From NCBI RefSeq assembly GCF_022012415.1, contig NZ_JAKLTR010000002.1:434001-498000 (forward strand): a stretch of 64,000 nucleotides of DNA. The letters run 5' to 3'. This document shows, in pieces, positions 11,509 through 23,333 of the stretch. The position numbers and the translations under genes are program-made. This DNA is from Terrimonas ginsenosidimutans. Its GTDB lineage: Bacteria > Bacteroidota > Bacteroidia > Chitinophagales > Chitinophagaceae. The number at the start of each line of letters is the position of its first letter. The first letter of the stretch is position 1. A model generated the notes under the pieces. That model was not told the DNA's origin. It saw only the letters and a program-made list of their open reading frames with translations, and did no database searches.

Positions 11509-11901
11509 ATGAACATCACTAACAACCAGGCAAGCAAGGCGCTTTATCAGGCAATTGATAAGGCGAATGAAATAGGTGTAAGTGCAAACATCACCATCCT
11601 TGATACGGCGGGTCATCTGAAACTGTTTGCACGAATGGATGACGCGTTTCTTGGATCCATTGATATTTCGATGGGGAAAGCAAAGACCGCAATGCTTTTC
11701 AGAATGAACTCTGAGAAAGTGGGAGAGTTCCTCGCACCGGAAATGGGTACTTATGGAATGCTGCAAACAAGCGGTGGACTAGTAGGATTCAAAGGCGGCA
11801 TGCCGGTGACGACGGGCACAGAAATACTCGCCTATATCGGAGTGTCCGGTGGAAGTCCTGATCAGGATTTCGAGATCGCTAAAGCGGGCAGCACTATTTG
11901 A
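11509..11901 (+). CDS. GlcG/HbpS family heme-binding-like protein
   Basis: A 130-residue cytoplasmic single-domain protein of the GlcG/HbpS (DUF336) family, with the ANITILDTAGHLKLFARMDDA segment, the SMGKAKTA helix and the GGMPVTTGTEILAYIGVSGGS glycine-rich strand. Family members are octameric; some bind heme or cobalamin or modulate oxidative stress responses. Lies 55 bp upstream of an SDR and is probably cotranscribed with it. No signal peptide. Confidence 0.9.
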   Translation: MNITNNQASKALYQAIDKANEIGVSANITILDTAGHLKLFARMDDAFLGSIDISMGKAKTAMLFRMNSEKVGEFLAPEMGTYGMLQTSGGLVGFKGGMPVTTGTEILAYIGVSGGSPDQDFEIAKAGSTI

Positions 11902-13052: not shown

Positions 13053-14480
13053 ATGAGACTACTTTCCCACCCATCTGTTCCTGTATTCTTTCTGGTATCG
13101 TTTTTCCAGGTGTTATTTGATTTTGACGCTTGTGCGCAACCAGCAAAAAAAGATTATATCATCCTTCACGGGGTGATCAAAAATCTGCCTCCACAGCCCG
13201 ATGGCAGAAGACAGATCGAACTGAGTTTTCCCTATGAATTCAACCTGCCGGATAAGAAGATCGAGGTGGCGGAAGACGGGTCTTTCCGGGACACACTTCC
13301 CAATCAAACCGGCGTGTATACGATCTGGGACGAAAAAACACCGGTATTGTTGTACATGGACAGATCAAAGCGTTACAGTATTGGGTACGATGCGGATCAT
13401 TTCAAGGACGGGGCGGTACTGGCCGGTGGAGATGATGTCAGCATTAACCAGTATTTTATTCTCAGGGCGCAGCAGCGACAATTTTTTGACCCTTCCGGGG
13501 AAGGCATGAATGAAGAAGCGTTCCGCAAATTCCTTTATGAGAGAAAGCTCAAGTCTCTCACGCGGATCCGTAACGCAAAACTACCGTCCGCCCTGACGCA
13601 TAGCGAAACCCAGGCAACAACGTATGAATACCTTTCGAACCTTTTTCTTTTCCTGGCTTTACGAGAACTTGAAGATCCGGCATTCAGGCCCGGGATGATC
13701 TCGCAGAAAGAACTGGCCATTAATTATTCCAACGAAGATCATTACAGAAAGTATGGTCAGTACCGGCGTCTTGTATTTGAATATTACCAGCGGCAATTGC
13801 GGATAAAGGAGGCTGAATTCCTGAAAACCGATTCGTCCTATTCGCTGACACAAAACAGGATCAGCCTGCTGGCATCAATCGTTCCCAATGAATATATACG
13901 CAACAAGCAGATTGCGGAGATCGCCCTGTTCGATCTGAAACAAGCCGGAGATATCATTGCACTCTACAGTGATTTTGAAAAGTATTACACCGGTGATGAT
14001 GAAAGGTTCAGGGAAAAGATGGCTGATGCTTTTCTACGACTGACCAGGTTAAAAAAAGGCACACCCTCTCCGGAATTCTCAGGCTATCTGAATTACAACG
14101 GCGGTACGAGTTCGCTCAGCGATTTTCGTGGGAAGTATGTCTACATTGATCTGTGGGCCAGCTGGTGTGGTAACTGCCCGGGGGAAGTGCCGTATCTTAA
14201 AGAACTTATGCGGAAGTACGAAGCCAAAAATATTGCCATTCTCAGCATCTCGGTAGACAAAGATGCCGCGAAGTGGACCGATGCGATAAAACGCCAGAAG
14301 ATGGAAGGAATACAGCTGCTGGCTAGCGATCAGGGAGGATCTTTTACCAAAGAGTATGCAGTGTATGGGATCCCGCGTTATATCCTTATCGACCCGGCGG
14401 GTGCGATCGTTGAGTATAACGCACCGCGTCCATCCGACACGGCAGCACTGGCTGCTTTGCTGGCGAGTGTAGGGCTTTGA
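13053..14480 (+). CDS. TlpA family thiol-disulfide oxidoreductase
   Basis: A 475-residue exported protein. Residues 1-30 form a signal peptide (cut near DACAQP), followed by a beta-rich N-terminal domain of the DUF4369 kind (about 30-120), a helical middle region and a C-terminal TlpA/AhpC-like thioredoxin fold (about 340-475) with the redox pair Cys372/Cys375 in ASWCGNC and a cis-Pro loop in YGIPRYILID. Proteins of this form are abundant in Bacteroidota and act in periplasmic thiol redox; the partner is unknown. It stands alone between terminators and the convergent MNIO cassette. Confidence 0.92.
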   Translation: MRLLSHPSVPVFFLVSFFQVLFDFDACAQPAKKDYIILHGVIKNLPPQPDGRRQIELSFPYEFNLPDKKIEVAEDGSFRDTLPNQTGVYTIWDEKTPVLLYMDRSKRYSIGYDADHFKDGAVLAGGDDVSINQYFILRAQQRQFFDPSGEGMNEEAFRKFLYERKLKSLTRIRNAKLPSALTHSETQATTYEYLSNLFLFLALRELEDPAFRPGMISQKELAINYSNEDHYRKYGQYRRLVFEYYQRQLRIKEAEFLKTDSSYSLTQNRISLLASIVPNEYIRNKQIAEIALFDLKQAGDIIALYSDFEKYYTGDDERFREKMADAFLRLTRLKKGTPSPEFSGYLNYNGGTSSLSDFRGKYVYIDLWASWCGNCPGEVPYLKELMRKYEAKNIAILSISVDKDAAKWTDAIKRQKMEGIQLLASDQGGSFTKEYAVYGIPRYILIDPAGAIVEYNAPRPSDTAALAALLASVGL

Positions 14481-14636: not shown

Positions 14637-15230
14637 TCATTCCGCTTCGGCGGGTTCCATTTCCACCTTATCATTGTTTATATAGATCTTGTAGCGGCAA
14701 ACAGAAGGAGGGACGTCTGCATCATCGAGGCTGCCATCGGCCAGGGCCCTGAGTACAAAAAAAATATCATGTTCAAAAGTAAGTATCCTGTGTTCGCCTT
14801 CCGGGAGATAGCTTAGTTCATTCATAGCGATCTCCAGTTGAAGAACTTCTTTCAGGTAAGGCTGACAAATTGCTCCCGTACTGATCTTATTTGTCAGAAA
14901 GGCTCCGAATTCAAGCACTTCTTCTTTGAATTGAAGACTGGGTTTCGTTAAATGCAGCCAGAATTCTTCTACCAAAGGGACCAGTTCGTCTTTCAATAGC
15001 ATGCAGGTGTTTGAGAGCTGGGAGTAAACCGGTGTGATCCTGTTCATCCTGTATAATGAACAACAGGCGGAGATCCCCCTTTGCCTTACGATCCCGTGCA
15101 AGCGTAACTTTTCCTTTTCAGTCAGGCTGAAGCGGGTAAAGAATGGTTCCTCTTCTGTCAATATCTCACAGCAGGTTTCGGGAGATGCGATCAGTGAAGC
15201 AATTGCCAGTTGGAAATCACGCGCACTCAT
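14637..15230 (-). CDS. HvfC-like MNIO partner protein (DUF2063-type)
   Basis: About 197 residues from the ATG at 15230 (MSARDFQLAI). The start overlaps the MNIO stop by 14 bp, suggesting translational coupling; an upstream in-frame start at 15275 would lie well inside the MNIO gene. All-helical N-terminal part with the HvfC/DUF2063 pattern: a YRMNR segment, an LVPLVEEFW helix, a PS..F.EEVLEFGAFL loop and a YLKEVLQLEIAMNEL helix. In characterised MNIO systems this partner recruits the precursor peptide to the enzyme. Similarity is by pattern, not strong identity, so the assignment is mainly contextual. Confidence 0.75.
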   Translation of the reverse strand: MSARDFQLAIASLIASPETCCEILTEEEPFFTRFSLTEKEKLRLHGIVRQRGISACCSLYRMNRITPVYSQLSNTCMLLKDELVPLVEEFWLHLTKPSLQFKEEVLEFGAFLTNKISTGAICQPYLKEVLQLEIAMNELSYLPEGEHRILTFEHDIFFVLRALADGSLDDADVPPSVCRYKIYINNDKVEMEPAEAE

Positions 15231-16122
15231 ATGCTGGTTTTTTATGGTGATATTTGTTCCAGGTGTTCCTGGCAAGCTCTATCTGCCTGTTTAGGCCCCC
15301 GAACTGTAAAAGCGGAAAATAAGATTCATGGAACTCGAAAGTGATCCCGCGAAGGTTCGGTGCTTTGCTTACCGCGTAGTCAAGTAACTCCCACACTTCA
15401 TCAGGGCATGGGCCTGCATGCGAATCCATGTAGAAGCCATTCATATCATTGCCTCCGGCGATATGCATTTCCATTACGGCAGACATGTCTAGTTCGTCGA
15501 TATAAGTTCTGGCGCATGTTCCCTGGTTTATTGCATTGGTATACAGGTTATGAATGTCGAGCAGGATATTGCAATGGTGGCCTTTTACCAGCTTGTTTAC
15601 AAAAGCGGTTTCTGTATAATCCTGTTCAGGATATTCTACAAAGTAAACATTGTTCTCCAGGAGAAAAGGAATCTCTATCGTGCTTTGTATAAAGTCGACT
15701 TTCTTTCCGATCATTTCCAGGTATTCTTCATCGTACGGAACGGGAATGGCTATTCCTGCATTGTGATCATGTGGTCCTTTGGTTGGCAGCTTGAGAAAGG
15801 AGAGGTGATCGCTATGCCATTTGAACTGATATCGTTCATGCATTTTCTGCATGAACCGGATATATTCTTCATCAAAATAATCGATAGTGCCAATGGATAT
15901 CCCGATGTTATGTGCTACCAGCGGCAGTCGCCCGGCTATCCAATCCAGTTGACGCATCCATTTGGGCAGTGGACGGAACCGGGGATTCTTACCTCTTCCT
16001 TCGTCGGACCAGAACATATCGGGTATGATCTCGATATAATCCAGCTGCTCAAAATGTTCTTTAAGGTATTCGGGTAATGCGGCATTATAGAGAATGCCTA
16101 TTCCCAACTGTTCAGTATTCAT
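15217..16122 (-). CDS. MNIO (DUF692) multinuclear iron oxidative enzyme
   Basis: About 301 residues from the ATG at 16122 (MNTEQLGIGI). MNIO enzymes have a TIM-barrel fold binding two or three iron ions and oxidise Cys, Asp or other residues of ribosomal peptides. Expected ligand motifs are all visible: LVAHNIG (His71), WHSDHLSF (His103, Asp105, His106), LLENN (Glu156), LLDIHNLYTNA (Asp189, His191), EMHIAGG (Glu218, His220) and the HAGP loop (His235). It lies 73 bp downstream of a small CxxC peptide gene and overlaps the partner gene, the classic order precursor, MNIO, partner. A hairpin sits just upstream at 16161-16190. Confidence 0.93.
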   Translation of the reverse strand: MNTEQLGIGILYNAALPEYLKEHFEQLDYIEIIPDMFWSDEGRGKNPRFRPLPKWMRQLDWIAGRLPLVAHNIGISIGTIDYFDEEYIRFMQKMHERYQFKWHSDHLSFLKLPTKGPHDHNAGIAIPVPYDEEYLEMIGKKVDFIQSTIEIPFLLENNVYFVEYPEQDYTETAFVNKLVKGHHCNILLDIHNLYTNAINQGTCARTYIDELDMSAVMEMHIAGGNDMNGFYMDSHAGPCPDEVWELLDYAVSKAPNLRGITFEFHESYFPLLQFGGLNRQIELARNTWNKYHHKKPAYECA

Positions 16123-16160
16123 TGATGAATTGTTTTGCAGCGTGAATGTCATTTAAATAA

Positions 16161-16190
16161 ATGTGTACGGCCACTGCCGGCCGTACACAT
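16161..16190 (-). terminator. Hairpin between peptide and MNIO genes
   Basis: A perfect 12-bp stem, ATGTGTACGGCC at 16161-16172 and its complement at 16179-16190, with a 6-nt loop. On the minus strand it lies 5 bp after the peptide stop codon and is followed by a T/A-rich tail. It probably acts as a leaky terminator or RNA end that keeps the peptide transcript in excess of the enzyme transcript (inference). Confidence 0.7.
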
Positions 16191-16195
16191 TGTCT

Positions 16196-16447
16196 TCAGG
16201 CCTTAGTGGCCAGTCCCCCGCGCAACGCCGGGATGTTAACAGGCAGTACTTTTTCGAACCTCTCACGAATAATGAAATGCTGGCCCGATAAACAAGCCTG
16301 GCAACCGGAAGGTCTGAACTGGGAAAGCAGGTCTCCCAATGTTACTTTGGCGAGTTCCTTATGGGACATGCCTTCCGGAATAACGATCTCAAGAGAATTG
16401 CGGAATTTGTCGTTTCTTAAACGCGCTTCGATTTTGAGCTCTGTCAT
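16196..16447 (-). CDS. Candidate MNIO substrate peptide (RiPP precursor-like)
   Basis: An 83-residue cytoplasmic protein without a signal peptide. The N-terminal 45 residues are charged and could be a leader (KIEARLRNDKFRNSLEIVIP...LAKVTLGDLLSQF). A short core follows with Cys49-Gln-Ala-Cys52 inside RPSGCQACLSGQHF, then a basic and hydrophobic tail ending LRGGLATKA. The only two cysteines are in this CxxC. Position directly ahead of MNIO and partner genes makes it the probable substrate. The peptide itself is not one I recognise; it is not a multi-Cys bufferin and carries no Sec signal. Confidence 0.7.
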   Translation of the reverse strand: MTELKIEARLRNDKFRNSLEIVIPEGMSHKELAKVTLGDLLSQFRPSGCQACLSGQHFIIRERFEKVLPVNIPALRGGLATKA

Positions 16448-18935: not shown

Positions 18936-19203
18936 GCAGATCTGCGGGAGGATAAGTCCATGACAGGATCGTCTCTTTGTTTTTATGTCCGCTTACGATC
19001 CAATGAAGCAGATGGCGATCATCTTTTGTGCACGTGCCGGCTGAATTAATGTTGATCTGACCACCTTCACGTTGCAATGGTCCGTTTTTTGAGAGGTTGA
19101 ATCTGTGCTGACCGTACCGCTTAGGATCATTAATAAAGTAATATTCCTTTTTTAAAGTCCGTAACTTCAGAACACCCCTCAAACATACAACATGGAAGAT
19201 CAA
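18904..19203 (-). CDS. Possible small hypothetical protein
   Basis: A 99-codon frame filling the gap before the molybdenum dehydrogenase genes. Its composition is more protein-like than most spurious frames (KKEYYFINDPKRYGQH, QININSAGTC, ILSWTYPPADLL), but both ends overlap flanking plus-strand genes and no domain is recognised. Either a small gene with a downstream start or a gene remnant. Confidence 0.25.
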   Translation of the reverse strand: MIFHVVCLRGVLKLRTLKKEYYFINDPKRYGQHRFNLSKNGPLQREGGQININSAGTCTKDDRHLLHWIVSGHKNKETILSWTYPPADLLTQFLPHSHV

Positions 19204-20001
19204 CCCAAGTTTCCGGACCTGACGGCCGATGAACGAAAGGTCATTGAAGAGCTCATGCCTGATGAAATGAGTGAGATCATTACTTCAGGGATCAAACGAC
19301 GCCACTTCCTTAAACTCATCACCTTTACCGGTACCGGTCTGCTTGCTGCGCACCTGCTTGGCATAGAGCAACTGATGGCCCGGAGTATCACCACACCGCC
19401 GCCTGCCCCGGTCGGCATCGAGAATGGGGTAAATCTTTCATTCAAAGTGAACGGCAATGCCCGCCAGCTGATGGTGGACTCCCGCATGACCCTGCTGGAT
19501 ACACTTCGTGAACGCCTTGAACTAACAGGTTCAAAGAAAGGATGTGATCATGGCCAATGCGGAGCGTGTACCGTTATCGTCGATGACCGGCGCGTACTTT
19601 CCTGCCTTACACTGGCGGCGTCCTGTGAAGATAAGCATGTCACCACTATCGAAGGGCTGGCCGATGGAAACGACCTACATCCGATGCAAACTGCATTCAT
19701 CAAACATGACGGCTTTCAATGCGGCTATTGTACGCCAGGTCAGATCTGTTCTGCTGTGGCGTTGATCAGTGAAGCAAAAAACGGGGAGGCAAGTTATGTA
19801 ACCGGCAATGTCCGCAAGAAAGAAAAGAACCTGAAACTGTCTGATGAGGAGATCAGGGAACGCATGTCCGGAAATATATGCCGCTGCGGCGCTTATCCCA
19901 ATATTGTGGACGCCATCCGCGAAGTTCATGGCAACAAAGCCGTTGCACAGCTGTGGCAATTTGCTGACGGTACTATTGATCATCCAAGCAATTTATCATG
20001 A
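19192..20001 (+). CDS. paoA: Aldehyde dehydrogenase iron-sulfur subunit (PaoA-like)
   Basis: A 269-residue [2Fe-2S] electron-transfer subunit of a molybdenum-containing aldehyde oxidoreductase of the xanthine oxidase family. The N terminus carries a twin-arginine motif (KRRHFLKL, Arg36/Arg37) followed by a hydrophobic stretch, indicating Tat export of the assembled complex to the periplasm. A plant-type ferredoxin cluster lies in GCDHGQCGACTV, and the second cluster in FQCGYCTPGQI with NICRCGAYPNI. It overlaps the FAD subunit by 4 bp. About 40 residues longer at the N terminus than cytosolic homologues because of the Tat leader. Confidence 0.93.
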   Translation: MEDQPKFPDLTADERKVIEELMPDEMSEIITSGIKRRHFLKLITFTGTGLLAAHLLGIEQLMARSITTPPPAPVGIENGVNLSFKVNGNARQLMVDSRMTLLDTLRERLELTGSKKGCDHGQCGACTVIVDDRRVLSCLTLAASCEDKHVTTIEGLADGNDLHPMQTAFIKHDGFQCGYCTPGQICSAVALISEAKNGEASYVTGNVRKKEKNLKLSDEEIRERMSGNICRCGAYPNIVDAIREVHGNKAVAQLWQFADGTIDHPSNLS

Positions 20002-21017
20002 GAGCATTCAAATTTTCAAAAGCTGCTGATGCAGGTAACGCTATTACCCTGGTGTCGGCAAATACCGGCGCAAGGTTTTTAGGTGGCGGAACAAACCTCG
20101 TGGACCTGATGAAGGAAGATGTGATGCATCCTACCGAACTGGTGGATATTACGCGGTTGAAATATGCCGATATCAAAAAGACTGGTGGCGGTGTGCAGAT
20201 CGGAAGCACGGCGACGAATTCTTATACCGCCAATCATGAAACCATCCGCCAGGAATATCCGCTACTGTCAATGGCGATCCTTGCAGGTGCCAGCGCACAG
20301 ATCAGGAATATGGCGACCAATGGTGGTAATATTAATCAACGCACACGCTGTTCCTACTTTTATGATGTTGATATGCCCTGTAATAAACGCGAACCCGGTT
20401 CCGGCTGCGGGGCATTGAGAGGCATCAACCGCAATCACGCGATATTAGGATGGTCGGAAAAATGCGTGGCAGTGTTCCCTTCAGACATGGCCGTTGCATT
20501 AACCGCACTCGGCGCCGTCGTGAATGTGGAAGGAGCGCAGCAAACAAAACGCAGTATTCCCATCGGAGATTATCATCGTCTGCCGGGCGACAATCCAGAA
20601 AAAGACAATACACTGAAGCAGGGAGAATTCATTACTTCCATAGAGCTTCCGGAAAATGATCTGGCAGATCATTCTTATTACCTCAAGATCCGTGAACGGT
20701 CTTCGTATGCCTTTGCACTGGTTTCCGTTGCGGCAGCATTATCGCTGAATGGAAGCCGGATCAGCCATGTGCGCATTGCGATGGGTGGTGTCGCACATAA
20801 ACCATGGAGAGCATCCCTCGCTGAAAAATGGCTGGCAGGTAAAGATGCAACGGAAGAGAATTTCAAAGCCGCTGCCGAGGCTGAATTAAAACAGGCAAGG
20901 CCGCTTGAACATAACAAGTTCAAAATCGCTCTTGCAAAGAAGGCGATCATCCGTGCATTGCAGGGAGCAATGGCTGGCGGAGCTTACGGGCTTCATGATA
21001 AAACGGATCAGGGATAG
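19998..21017 (+). CDS. paoB: Aldehyde dehydrogenase FAD subunit (PaoB-like)
   Basis: A 339-residue FAD-binding subunit that passes electrons from the iron-sulfur subunit to the acceptor. It begins MRAFKFSKAADAGNAI and holds the FAD pyrophosphate loop in ARFLGGGTNLVDLMKE and GASAQIRNMATNGGNI. The insert NQRTRCSYFYDVDMPCNKREPGSGC carries the extra cysteines known to bind a [4Fe-4S] cluster in E. coli PaoB, separating it from ordinary xanthine dehydrogenase FAD subunits. Translationally coupled to the preceding gene. Confidence 0.93.
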   Translation: MRAFKFSKAADAGNAITLVSANTGARFLGGGTNLVDLMKEDVMHPTELVDITRLKYADIKKTGGGVQIGSTATNSYTANHETIRQEYPLLSMAILAGASAQIRNMATNGGNINQRTRCSYFYDVDMPCNKREPGSGCGALRGINRNHAILGWSEKCVAVFPSDMAVALTALGAVVNVEGAQQTKRSIPIGDYHRLPGDNPEKDNTLKQGEFITSIELPENDLADHSYYLKIRERSSYAFALVSVAAALSLNGSRISHVRIAMGGVAHKPWRASLAEKWLAGKDATEENFKAAAEAELKQARPLEHNKFKIALAKKAIIRALQGAMAGGAYGLHDKTDQG

Positions 21018-21050
21018 GAACGAATGTCGATTCACTAAAAAACGAAAGCA

Positions 21051-23333
21051 ATGAGTGAAACAGGTAAACCGATCAACCGGATAGACGGGCGGCTGAAAGT
21101 AAGCGGCAAAGCTACTTATTCAGCAGAATTCAACCAGCCAAATATGGCATATGCGTTTCCCGTAAGGGCGACCATCGCAAAAGGAAAGATCGCTTCCATA
21201 GATGATGCTGCTGTAAAGAAAGAGCCCGGCGTACTCAGCGTGATCAGCCATAAGAACGCATTCAGGTTGAAACCACTCGATATACAAGCGCAGATGAAAG
21301 CCGGCGCGGCATTCCTGGGAGAGAACCTGCCACCATTACAGAGTAATATTGTGCATTACCCCGGACAGTTCATTGCCGTTGTGGTTGCGGAAAGCTATGA
21401 GCAGGCCCGTGCGGCTGCGTATAAATTAAAAGTCCGTTACACGGTTGAAAAAGGGGCAACGGACCTGAAGACCGAATTGCTGAAAAGCAAAAAGCCAAAA
21501 ATGTTCATGGGCGAAGAAGCGCAGGTGAATGAGGGCAAGGCGGCAGCATCACTGGCAAGCTCCACCAATCGCGTGGATCATACTTATTCAACGCCGGTTG
21601 AACATCATCATCCGATGGAACCTCATGCAACCGTTGCGCTTTGGGAAAACAGCGATCAGCTTACGTTGTATGACGCGACGCAAGGCGTGGGACTTACGGG
21701 TACCATTGCCGCTTATTTCTTTGGCCTGAAACCGGAGAATGTGCGTGTGATCGCACCGTTTGTCGGTGGTGGCTTTGGCTGTAAAGGACTGTGGTTGCAT
21801 ACACTGCTGGTGGCGATGGCTGCAAAGGCTGCGGGCAGGCCGGTAAAACTTGCCCTGACGCGACAGATGATGCAAACCAATGTCGGTCATCGTGCGGCCA
21901 CCATACAACGGGTAGCATTAGGAACGGATGCAAACGGCAAACTGAGCGTGATGCGTCATCATACAGATTCCTATAACAACCTGACCGAGTTCTTTGAACC
22001 AAGCGGGAAACAGTCGCTCGTGCTGTATGAAGCACCACTCCGTGAGGTGACGTATAACGTCGCGAAACTAAATCGCGGTACACCTACATTCATGCGAGCA
22101 CCCGGCGAAACACCCGGGACTTTCGCACTGGAATCTGCCATGGATGAGATGGCCTACAAGTTAAAGATCGATCCGGTTGAATTCCGGATAAAAAATCATA
22201 CAACAAAGGATCCGATGAAAGGCCATGAATTCTCCAGTGAATTCCTGCTTGACTGTTACCGCATTGGCGCGGAAAGATTCGGATGGTCATCACGAAATCT
22301 TGAACCAAGGCAAAAGCGCAACGGAAAGTACCTGGTTGGCTATGGAATGGCAACGGCTACATACCCCGCAGGACGCAGTGCGTCTTCCGTTAAAGTAGTG
22401 ATGAAGAGCAACGGTGACGTGACCCTGTTGACTGCCTCCATTGATATCGGCACCGGAACCTATACCGTACTTGCGCAAACTGCCAGCGATGCGCTCGGTG
22501 TGCCCGTGGAAAGAATTGAGGTGAAGATCGGTGATTCCGCATTACCACCTTCTCCACTTGCCGGCGGCTCACAAACCACGGCCAGTATTCATCCTGCTGC
22601 ACTGGAAGCCTGCAAGCTATTGCGCGCTCAACTGGCAGCACTGGCGACCGCCGATCCAGCCTCCAAACTCAATGGACGCAAACCTGAAGACATCGGATAT
22701 GCCGATGGGAAATTATTTGTGACCGCAGATCCAAATAAAGCGGAATCATATACCGATATCCTGAAGCGTGCAAAACGAAATGAGATGGAAGCCTGCGCAA
22801 CCACTCAGCCCATATCCGGAGCAGGGCTTACGATTCCCGGTGCACTATGTACACCCCGTGAAATACCCGCTGATCAGAACAGTGATATCAAACAACATGC
22901 TTTTCATTCGTTCGGTGCACAGTTTGCCGAAGTATGGGTGGATGAAGATTTCGGAACGATCCGCGTAACACGTTTCACCAGTGTACAGGATGTTGGCCGC
23001 ATCATGAATGAAAAAACAGCCCGTTCACAGATCATCGGTGGCGTTATTTTCGGGATCGGTGCTGCACTGATGGAAGCAACCGAATATGACAAGCGCTGGG
23101 GCAATGCAGTGGTAAGGACGCTGGCAGACTATCATGTTCCAGTGCATCTGGACGTGCCGCCAATTGATGTACATTTTATTGGCAAACCGGATCCGCATAT
23201 ATCTCCTATAGGCGCGAGGGGAATAGGGGAGATCGGGATCACGGGTGTATCTGCAGCGATTGCCAATGCGGTTTTCAATGCTACGGGTAAGCGGGTGAGG
23301 GATCTTCCATTGACACCGGATAAGTTATTGTAG
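21051..23333 (+). CDS. paoC: Aldehyde dehydrogenase molybdenum subunit (PaoC-like)
   Basis: A 760-residue catalytic subunit binding the molybdenum cofactor, oxidising aldehydes to acids. Key segments: the VGGGFGCKG cofactor loop (about residues 237-245), FMRAPGETPGTFALESAMDEMA, GGSQTTASIHP and the catalytic base Glu727 in ARGIGEIGITG. Length and order match the Pao (YagR) type and not three-domain eukaryotic enzymes. It follows the FAD gene by 33 bp. A PaoD/XdhC-type maturation chaperone is not adjacent and must lie elsewhere if it exists. Confidence 0.93.
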   Translation: MSETGKPINRIDGRLKVSGKATYSAEFNQPNMAYAFPVRATIAKGKIASIDDAAVKKEPGVLSVISHKNAFRLKPLDIQAQMKAGAAFLGENLPPLQSNIVHYPGQFIAVVVAESYEQARAAAYKLKVRYTVEKGATDLKTELLKSKKPKMFMGEEAQVNEGKAAASLASSTNRVDHTYSTPVEHHHPMEPHATVALWENSDQLTLYDATQGVGLTGTIAAYFFGLKPENVRVIAPFVGGGFGCKGLWLHTLLVAMAAKAAGRPVKLALTRQMMQTNVGHRAATIQRVALGTDANGKLSVMRHHTDSYNNLTEFFEPSGKQSLVLYEAPLREVTYNVAKLNRGTPTFMRAPGETPGTFALESAMDEMAYKLKIDPVEFRIKNHTTKDPMKGHEFSSEFLLDCYRIGAERFGWSSRNLEPRQKRNGKYLVGYGMATATYPAGRSASSVKVVMKSNGDVTLLTASIDIGTGTYTVLAQTASDALGVPVERIEVKIGDSALPPSPLAGGSQTTASIHPAALEACKLLRAQLAALATADPASKLNGRKPEDIGYADGKLFVTADPNKAESYTDILKRAKRNEMEACATTQPISGAGLTIPGALCTPREIPADQNSDIKQHAFHSFGAQFAEVWVDEDFGTIRVTRFTSVQDVGRIMNEKTARSQIIGGVIFGIGAALMEATEYDKRWGNAVVRTLADYHVPVHLDVPPIDVHFIGKPDPHISPIGARGIGEIGITGVSAAIANAVFNATGKRVRDLPLTPDKLL

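Follow-up and report, generated by a model that had tools for sequence, protein, structure and literature searches.

Multinuclear non-heme iron-dependent oxidative enzymes (MNIOs) carry out very different oxidations from the same iron centre, and many of their subgroups are without an assigned substrate in the accessible part of the survey that describes them (PMC12452194). In the bufferin and captophorin systems (BufABC, FonABC, and HvfABC) the precursor has a signal peptide and repeated or several cysteines, the MNIO a conserved catalytic Asp, and the partner protein the DUF2063 domain (PME-type 1). In the TglA/TglHI system for 3-thiaglutamate (PDB 8hci and 8hi7) the modified cysteine is C-terminal and appended to the peptide. 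In ChrA and DybA the two cysteines of a C-x-x-C-x-x-G core end in one macrocycle beside a hydantoin, and modified DybA is lighter by 4 Da and has one alkylatable thiol fewer (PMC12636315, available part). Finally, signal-less putative precursors with a CxxC have been reported beside MNIO cluster 7 and named adjamnio-7 (representative WP_078758616, Novilysobacter spongiicola; PMC12452194, same part). Here we describe a cassette of three genes, encoding a small peptide, an MNIO (DUF692) and a partner protein, in a 64,000-nucleotide stretch of Terrimonas ginsenosidimutans (contig NZ_JAKLTR010000002.1, positions 434,001 to 498,000; "the window" refers to this whole stretch). It is quite probably a minimal cassette of the ribosomally synthesized and post-translationally modified peptide (RiPP) type, in which a TglI-like partner presents the peptide and the MNIO oxidises one or both cysteines of a C-x-x-C-x-S-G (CxxCxSG) motif in place.

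The relationship between the enzyme, the motif and the partner was analyzed on a tree of 87 MNIO rows, gathered by MNIO similarity and not by peptide. The window's enzyme fell in a clade of 24 Bacteroidota rows (support 100/99), which three Acidobacteriota rows enlarge to 27 with weaker support (92/54); these 27 rows represent 26 distinct loci, L017 and L027 being one locus. A CxxCxSG peptide was encoded within 900 nt upstream of the MNIO gene in all 27 rows, Chitinophaga included, and all 27 matched a profile of the partner, versus none of the 60 other MNIO rows (E 1e-3). The partner profile itself contains 17 of the clade rows, and the ten independent ones (L028, L042, L044-L046, L064-L066, L086, and L087) matched it at 1.5e-19 or better. 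Among the 60 other rows the same scan found the motif in two: in L067, which seems to be a true relative, and in L089, whose Cys-rich protein belongs to another type. Matches in L031 and L048 from a scan of both strands lay in antisense frames and were taken as chance. The CxxCxSG label required 3 changes on the tree versus 24.6 in shuffles, with none of 500 shuffles as low, a figure that is helped by near-copies. Conservation of the CxxC beside DUF692 genes had been proposed as a check in a preliminary description of this DNA, made from its letters, which took the peptide as the MNIO substrate. The check came out in its favor: with a CxxCxSG precursor preceding every MNIO of the clade, and with no known domain found in the window's peptide, that role is likely. 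Left out of the tree were copies (L022-L024 and L063), a 16S locus (L061), the window again (L001, L002, L020, L021, and L062), contigs of rows already kept (L003, L006-L013, L015, L018, and L019) and wider stretches (L110-L115); L016 (Chitinophaga sp. Ak27), also outside it, is a separate locus that carries this cassette too.

The peptide gene is genuine: related MNIOs are preceded by homologous ORFs, and its copies in Chitinophaga are under purifying selection (median dN/dS 0.14 over 70 of 78 pairs, the other 8 being saturated or too close). In an alignment of 17 peptides, in which that of the window is 31-61% identical to its 16 relatives, residues P46, G48, C49, C52, S54, and G55 are invariant, and H57, F58, I60, R61, E62, E65, V67, and V70 in the tail that follows are nearly so. 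A tail akin to this one was also found in the Acidobacteriota loci L086 and L087, whose peptides lie outside the peptide profile and match it at 1.2e-07 and 8.4e-07. The site first proposed, Cys49-Gln-Ala-Cys52, stood as far as the invariant cysteine pair is concerned, which is the likely site of modification, and had to be enlarged to C-x-x-C-x-S-G as the conserved motif. The absence of a signal peptide and of the repeated Cys motifs of bufferins, both asserted earlier, was borne out: the N-terminus MTELKIEARLRNDKF is charged and has no hydrophobic stretch (judged by eye), the peptide has only two cysteines, and it does not match DUF2282. A known non-RiPP domain, which would have spoken against the peptide as a precursor, was absent, with nothing significant in Pfam, NCBIfam or PHROGs. 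A phage family (E 0.086) and, for the L004 peptide, NfuA (E 0.052) were discarded as chance matches.

Table 1. Coordinates of the cassette, of its conserved parts and of the Taibaiella locus (window positions unless a locus is named).
Feature	Position	Strand	Basis or remark
Partner, 197 aa, PME-type 2: predicted helical domain plus short RiPP recognition element (RRE)-like part	14637..15230	-	Predicted fold
MNIO/partner gene overlap, 14 bp	15217..15230	-	Partner ATG at 15230, MNIO end at 15217
MNIO (DUF692, PF05114), 301 aa	15217..16122	-	Pfam; alternative start at 16152 gives 311 aa
Putative precursor, 83 residues	16196..16447	-	ORF call, homologues, purifying selection
Conserved tail after the motif, residues 56-72, QHFIIRERFEKVLPVNI	16232..16282	-	Near-invariant residues in alignment
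Core motif P46-S-G-C49-Q-A-C52-L-S-G55, proposed modification site	16283..16312	-	Invariant residues in alignment
Taibaiella sp. KBW10 locus	L017 5674-10315		GG-type leader with two CPACRSG copies, MNIO, partner

The preliminary description had also made its proposal depend on the peptide being present beside orthologous MNIO genes. This held in part: a homologue of the window-type peptide was recognized by profile in 22 of the 27 rows (16 of these by construction), and the other five rows (four loci, L064-L066 and L017) carry the motif on a different, leader-type scaffold. L064-L066 come from a single genus in the window's family. The N-termini of their precursors resemble Bacteroidota leader peptides, and the cores read CCPACLSG, CCPACRSG or CCPGCRSG (also at about 5530-6198 in L110 and from 8957 in L111). 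The precursor genes occur as tandem pairs in L064 and L065, and one was seen in L066. Of two such precursors tested, one gave a weak match to a class I lanthipeptide leader model (15.3 of 22 bits), and a precursor of the L064 type aligned with the peptide profile around the motif alone (21 columns, probability 49%). In the Taibaiella locus, a C39 peptidase ABC transporter is encoded about 0.5 kb beyond the partner gene on the opposite strand. Since the motif is kept where the rest of the precursor differs, the motif rather than the scaffold is likely to be what the MNIO acts on, and this is our best argument; its occurrence on two scaffold types also separates core recognition from leader recognition. 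These loci bear as well on the alternative that the peptide is a small accessory protein, an adaptor or metal donor, with the real substrate of the MNIO elsewhere. Such a role would agree with conservation along the whole peptide, tail included, and with the absence of exporter or protease domains among the eight window neighbours scanned; the motif is nevertheless retained on changed scaffolds, occurs twice in the Taibaiella peptide and is duplicated in tandem genes, a pattern more in keeping with a substrate than with an adaptor, and we regard the accessory role as very unlikely.

Further indication that enzyme and partner belong together came from L067, a locus of the window's family. Its peptide GCPGCHSGFDIRF is related to that of the window (hhalign probability 76%), and after it comes a 490-residue frame that contains an MNIO from about 1500 followed by a partner-like region (hhalign probability 59%, below the partner-profile threshold of E 1e-3). 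This frame is likely a natural MNIO-partner fusion, as would be expected if the two proteins act together.

The partner had been labelled HvfC/DUF2063-like. At the sequence level this label did not hold: the window's protein gave chance-level Pfam matches (best E 0.09) and no NCBIfam match, DUF2063 appeared at E 0.033 in one of the 17 members of the partner alignment, and the partner profile drew only chance-level matches from PDB sequences. At the level of the fold it did. An AlphaFold2 model (pLDDT 84.6), built on the alignment of the window's partner and 16 relatives, was compared by Foldseek, in which two TglI chains were the only matches below E 0.001. With a second aligner these chains reached Z 12.6 and 12.4 (rmsd 4.2 over 187 and 186 residues), and NGO1945, a DUF2063 protein, reached Z 10.8 (rmsd 3.1 over 126 residues), the three being the top of 791 chains. 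Next came MbnC (Z 5.6), which was rejected as a match, being not above unrelated chains (the first at 5.3). In the part of the survey at hand, an NGO1945-related fold without the DUF2063 signature defines PME-type 2, which is tied to signal-less precursors (PMC12452194). The partner, encoded after the MNIO, lacking that signature and having a predicted NGO1945/TglI fold, agrees with this type. At 197 residues it is shorter than the TglI chain (268).

The MNIO matched PF05114 (E 6.7e-54; 183.3 bits, cut-off 25), and its profile aligned with TglH (PDB 8hci) over nearly the full length. The five NCBIfam MNIO models that it matched all scored far below their cut-offs: BufB 155.7 of 310 bits, HvfB 133.2 of 360, ApyH 92.4 of 400, ChrH 58.4 of 600 and MbnB 17.8 of 325. 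The iron ligands of TglH are given as H71, H107, E151, D184, N187, H216, D229, H231, and E258 (PMC10880893, available part), and the profile alignment placed H71, H106, E156, D189, N192, H220, D233, H235, and E263 of the window at these positions. The earlier statement that all iron-ligand motifs are present was therefore correct, with nine of nine kept. Within the window's clade all nine are invariant (27 rows). The other large clade keeps eight of them in 52 of 52 rows, and at the ninth it has Glu in 45 rows and an unreadable position in 7.

A difference between the two clades was observed next to the last Glu ligand. In the thiooxazole-forming FonB, an Ala variant of Asp249 left the peptide unmodified, according to the portion of that report available (PMC12668002). 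The next residue in FonB is Phe250, and the EGKCG-type locus L029 reads E-R-D-F; on this basis Asp249 would be the equivalent of the Asp of an E-x-D string located after the last Glu ligand. FonB itself is outside our alignment. At this position the other large clade has Asp in 41 of 41 readable rows (11 more show a gap), and the window's clade has His in 23 rows, Asp in the three rows L064-L066 and Phe in one; by our mapping the window's residue is His265. Since the Asp of thiooxazole MNIOs is mostly replaced by His, bufferin-type chemistry becomes less likely. In such chemistry the MNIO would turn one of the motif cysteines, or both, into 5-thiooxazole, as known from bufferins and captophorins, and copper would be bound by the peptide. 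This idea draws on the best NCBIfam score, which is that of the bufferin maturase and falls below its cut-off, on the proposal of 5-thiooxazole for tens of thousands of MNIOs (PMC12668002, same portion), and on the Asp retained in L064-L066. It is opposed by the Asp replacement in 24 of 27 rows, by a two-cysteine peptide with no signal peptide evident by eye and no DUF2282 match, by a partner that is not PME-type 1 by signature, and by the position of the MNIO outside the clade containing the EGKCG-precursor rows. We therefore hold a thiooxazole metallophore to be decidedly unlikely.

TglH, as described in the accessible part of its report, also lacks the MbnB-type catalytic Asp and has an essential Asn73 (PMC10880893). 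Excision of a beta-carbon as by TglH, by which one motif Cys would become 2-mercaptoglycine with release of formate, is in line with the His at the E-x-D position, with TglI as the best fold match of the partner and with the nearly full-length TglH alignment. In addition, the profile alignment places the window's Asn72 on Asn73, a position that is Asn in 19 of the 27 clade rows and in none of the 52 rows of the other clade; it is His, Gly or Ser in the remaining 8, and the match hinges on where a one-residue gap is placed. The target of TglH, however, is a C-terminal Cys appended to its peptide, and the cysteines of the window are internal and paired. On balance an excision seems unlikely here.

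The third chemistry weighed was a crosslink as by ChrH and DybH, in which the two cysteines would be joined in a macrocycle and the following backbone rearranged, as at CPACGMG. The spacing C-x-x-C-x-x-G is identical, and the cores CPACLSG, CPGCRSG and CPACRSG of L064-L066 and L017 resemble CPACGMG, the core found in L032 and L033, two loci of the ChrH type. Yet a long branch (6.7) separates the enzymes in the tree, the ChrH model scores far below its cut-off, and DybH needs no partner, in the part of the source available, whereas every row examined here has one; the window's motif is internal, and the likeness of the motifs may be convergence. A crosslink of this kind is possible, though doubtful. 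L032 (Taibaiella) and L033 (Chitinophaga) encode lipoprotein-like precursors ending in CPACGMG, and their genomes also hold the CxxCxSG cassette; one Chitinophaga genome (G776) holds both systems. Taking together the replaced Asp, the absence of an MbnB-type Asp in TglH and the core spacing of ChrA and DybA, our leading guess from these comparisons would be a Cys-based oxidation that does not yield a thiooxazole: a crosslink like that of DybH (-4 Da, no band at 305 nm) or a beta-carbon excision like that of TglH (-14 Da).

For the cassette as a whole we propose the following course. It builds on the observed gene order, conservation, co-occurrence and ligand set and on the predicted fold of the partner; that the peptide is the substrate, the site, the order of steps and the fate of the product are inferred. 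The partner, with its helical domain and short RRE-like part, would bind the MNIO and present the small peptide; a thiolate of the motif would become a ligand of the multi-iron centre; and the MNIO would activate O2 and oxidise one motif cysteine, or both, in place. Both the conserved N-terminal region of the peptide and its C-terminal tail would probably be retained, and the product here may then be a small modified cytosolic protein rather than a released core. In Taibaiella, a related enzyme pair would serve a leader-type precursor near the C39 peptidase exporter. Several points weigh against this proposal. Cleaved cores seldom show such strong conservation in the tail behind the motif, and a small protein accessory to the MNIO would account for it just as well. 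For the peptide, AlphaFold gave a low-confidence model (pLDDT 56.8), too poor for modelling its recognition or for a fold search. Z values below about 13 can, for helical proteins, mean merely a common arrangement, although the three best structural matches of the partner are all MNIO partners despite these middling values. The equation of the E-x-D Asp with Asp249 of the unaligned FonB depends on the E-R-D-F string of L029, and the three rows that keep Asp mean that the active-site argument does not span the whole clade. The nodes joining Acidobacteriota with Bacteroidota rows are weak (92/54 and 94/59), and the 60 comparison rows are the best-scoring loci only, mostly with 1.5 kb flanks.

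The cassette was also compared with the described classes. Its peptide has no C-terminal Cys as in pearlins (TglHI), the cysteines being residues 49 and 52 of 83, and the cassette shares with TglHI the nine ligands, the predicted partner fold and the lack of the MbnB-type Asp. With ChrA/ChrH and DybA/DybH it shares the C-x-x-C-x-x-G core; the core of those systems (chryseobasins) is CPxCGxG and mostly C-terminal, their MNIOs form a distant branch, DybA is a lipoprotein precursor and DybH acts without a partner. Here the core is CQACLSG, and the MNIO is on a branch separate from L032 and L033. Bufferins and captophorins have the same gene order and a cysteine-bearing precursor. Bufferin precursors are recognized by DUF2282, or by 6 or 12 cysteines, together with a Sec signal; the window's peptide belongs to no Pfam family and shows no Sec signal by eye. 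It also has a single CQAC and neither Lys-Cys nor Cys-Lys, and its cassette has no DUF2063 partner and His265 in place of Asp, unlike captophorin/EGKCG (oxazolin) systems. The closest likeness in description is adjamnio-7, with no signal peptide (judged by eye for the window), a CxxC and a predicted MNIO substrate; compared by description only, the peptide family described here may be the same as, or part of, adjamnio-7. The suggestion of a new product class may be too strong, since the signal-less CxxC precursors of adjamnio-7 were predicted before, in the accessible part of that survey (PMC12452194). Nor is the cassette confined to Bacteroidota, three Acidobacteriota loci belonging to the clade. 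The present analysis adds an extended motif (CxxCxSG), a cassette that recurs, another type of scaffold, the active-site difference, and the occurrence in Chitinophaga, Spirosoma and Acidobacteriota; no further record of the motif or family was found in the open-access literature without supplements, a body that leaves most subscription papers outside. A broader reading, which we advance tentatively, is that CxxCxSG is a scaffold-independent tag, modified by a distinct MNIO/PME-type 2 pair through an undescribed chemistry and spread as a three-gene cassette, which would stand inside small intracellular proteins in Bacteroidota and Acidobacteriota and also on exported leader-type peptides. The clade includes named strains (Chitinophaga arvensicola DSM 3695, C. 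ginsengisegetis DSM 18108, and Spirosoma terrae KCTC 52035), and for it a probable substrate, the motif, the partner and an active-site change are now known side by side, so that a single co-expression can test the chemistry of the E-F-H active site.

The distribution of the cassette was studied with MNIO-based searches of genome samples, loci being taken from the best matches. A scan with one genome per species gave 17 loci, with 70% identity to the window's MNIO in Spirosoma terrae, 53-56% in 13 Chitinophaga genomes, 53% in a Bacteroidota metagenome-assembled genome (MAG), 47% in Taibaiella sp. KBW10 and 35% in a Bryobacteraceae MAG. Among 60 sampled Chitinophaga genomes, 47 had some MNIO match and 16 a close relative (E < 1e-160), and in all 16 a peptide with NPRGCQACLSG lay upstream. 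Close relatives were rare elsewhere: 5 of 244 genomes of the window's family (E < 1e-100, source genome included), 1 of 220 in the family of S. terrae (S. terrae itself) and 3 of 247 in the phylum of the Bryobacteraceae MAG (E < 1e-99; G780, G1132, and G1278, the MAG included). The other genome of the window's genus had no close MNIO relative. In S. terrae the 70% match is the only close relative among the sampled genomes of that family and may hint at a transfer from one lineage to another. By BLASTP of neighbours between the window and 17 loci, the genes in common with the window were the three of the cassette, antisense shadow frames aside; Taibaiella shared the MNIO and partner only, and the Bryobacteraceae MAG the MNIO only, its partner being seen from S. 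terrae. The flanks differ between lineages, Chitinophaga loci share theirs among themselves, and S. terrae and Taibaiella have an ABC transporter resemblance in common. Searches with the peptide found the window alone, both with the single sequence (394 family genomes) and with a profile (A1; 394 family and 395 phylum genomes); these absences are weak evidence, because at most 14 candidates were scored per genome. In plasmids and viral contigs the peptide had no match, exact-pattern searching included, and the MNIO none in viral contigs by exact patterns; 354 plasmid records matched the MNIO, all below 60% identity and at about 25-30% among the 30 matches listed. These results do not support a mobile-element origin.

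In the window, the ORFs and coordinates agreed with the layout first described, all three genes lying head to tail on one strand with the overlap listed in Table 1. One MNIO and one peptide of the CxxCxSG type were found in the 7.1 Mb source genome. As also noted earlier, no adjacent protease or exporter was seen: no such domain was found by Pfam in eight neighbouring window proteins, one of which matches no family at all, the ORF at 11509-11901 being among the neighbours outside that scan. No match to a Bacteroidota-type promoter pattern was found within the 64 kb. A Redoxin/thioredoxin-like protein is encoded convergently with the cassette (13053-14480) and had no match in the related loci compared, and a three-gene molybdopterin oxidoreductase with [2Fe-2S], FAD and molybdopterin subunits lies at 19192-23333.

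Other small peptides were seen beside MNIO genes. L082-L084, from the family of Spirosoma, combine a GC(T/L)(A/G)CGLGGRDL peptide with an MNIO, and the protein downstream differs from the partner. A comparison of one of these loci with peptides of the window's type gave only 23%, and the peptides are perhaps another CxxC precursor group. The peptide of L088 carries the motif GCEACGRIA. Finally, the MNIO genes of L071 and L085 are preceded by long frames, rich in Cys and about 200 residues in length (CHTLNNCRGQGGCG...), which are possible large MNIO substrates.

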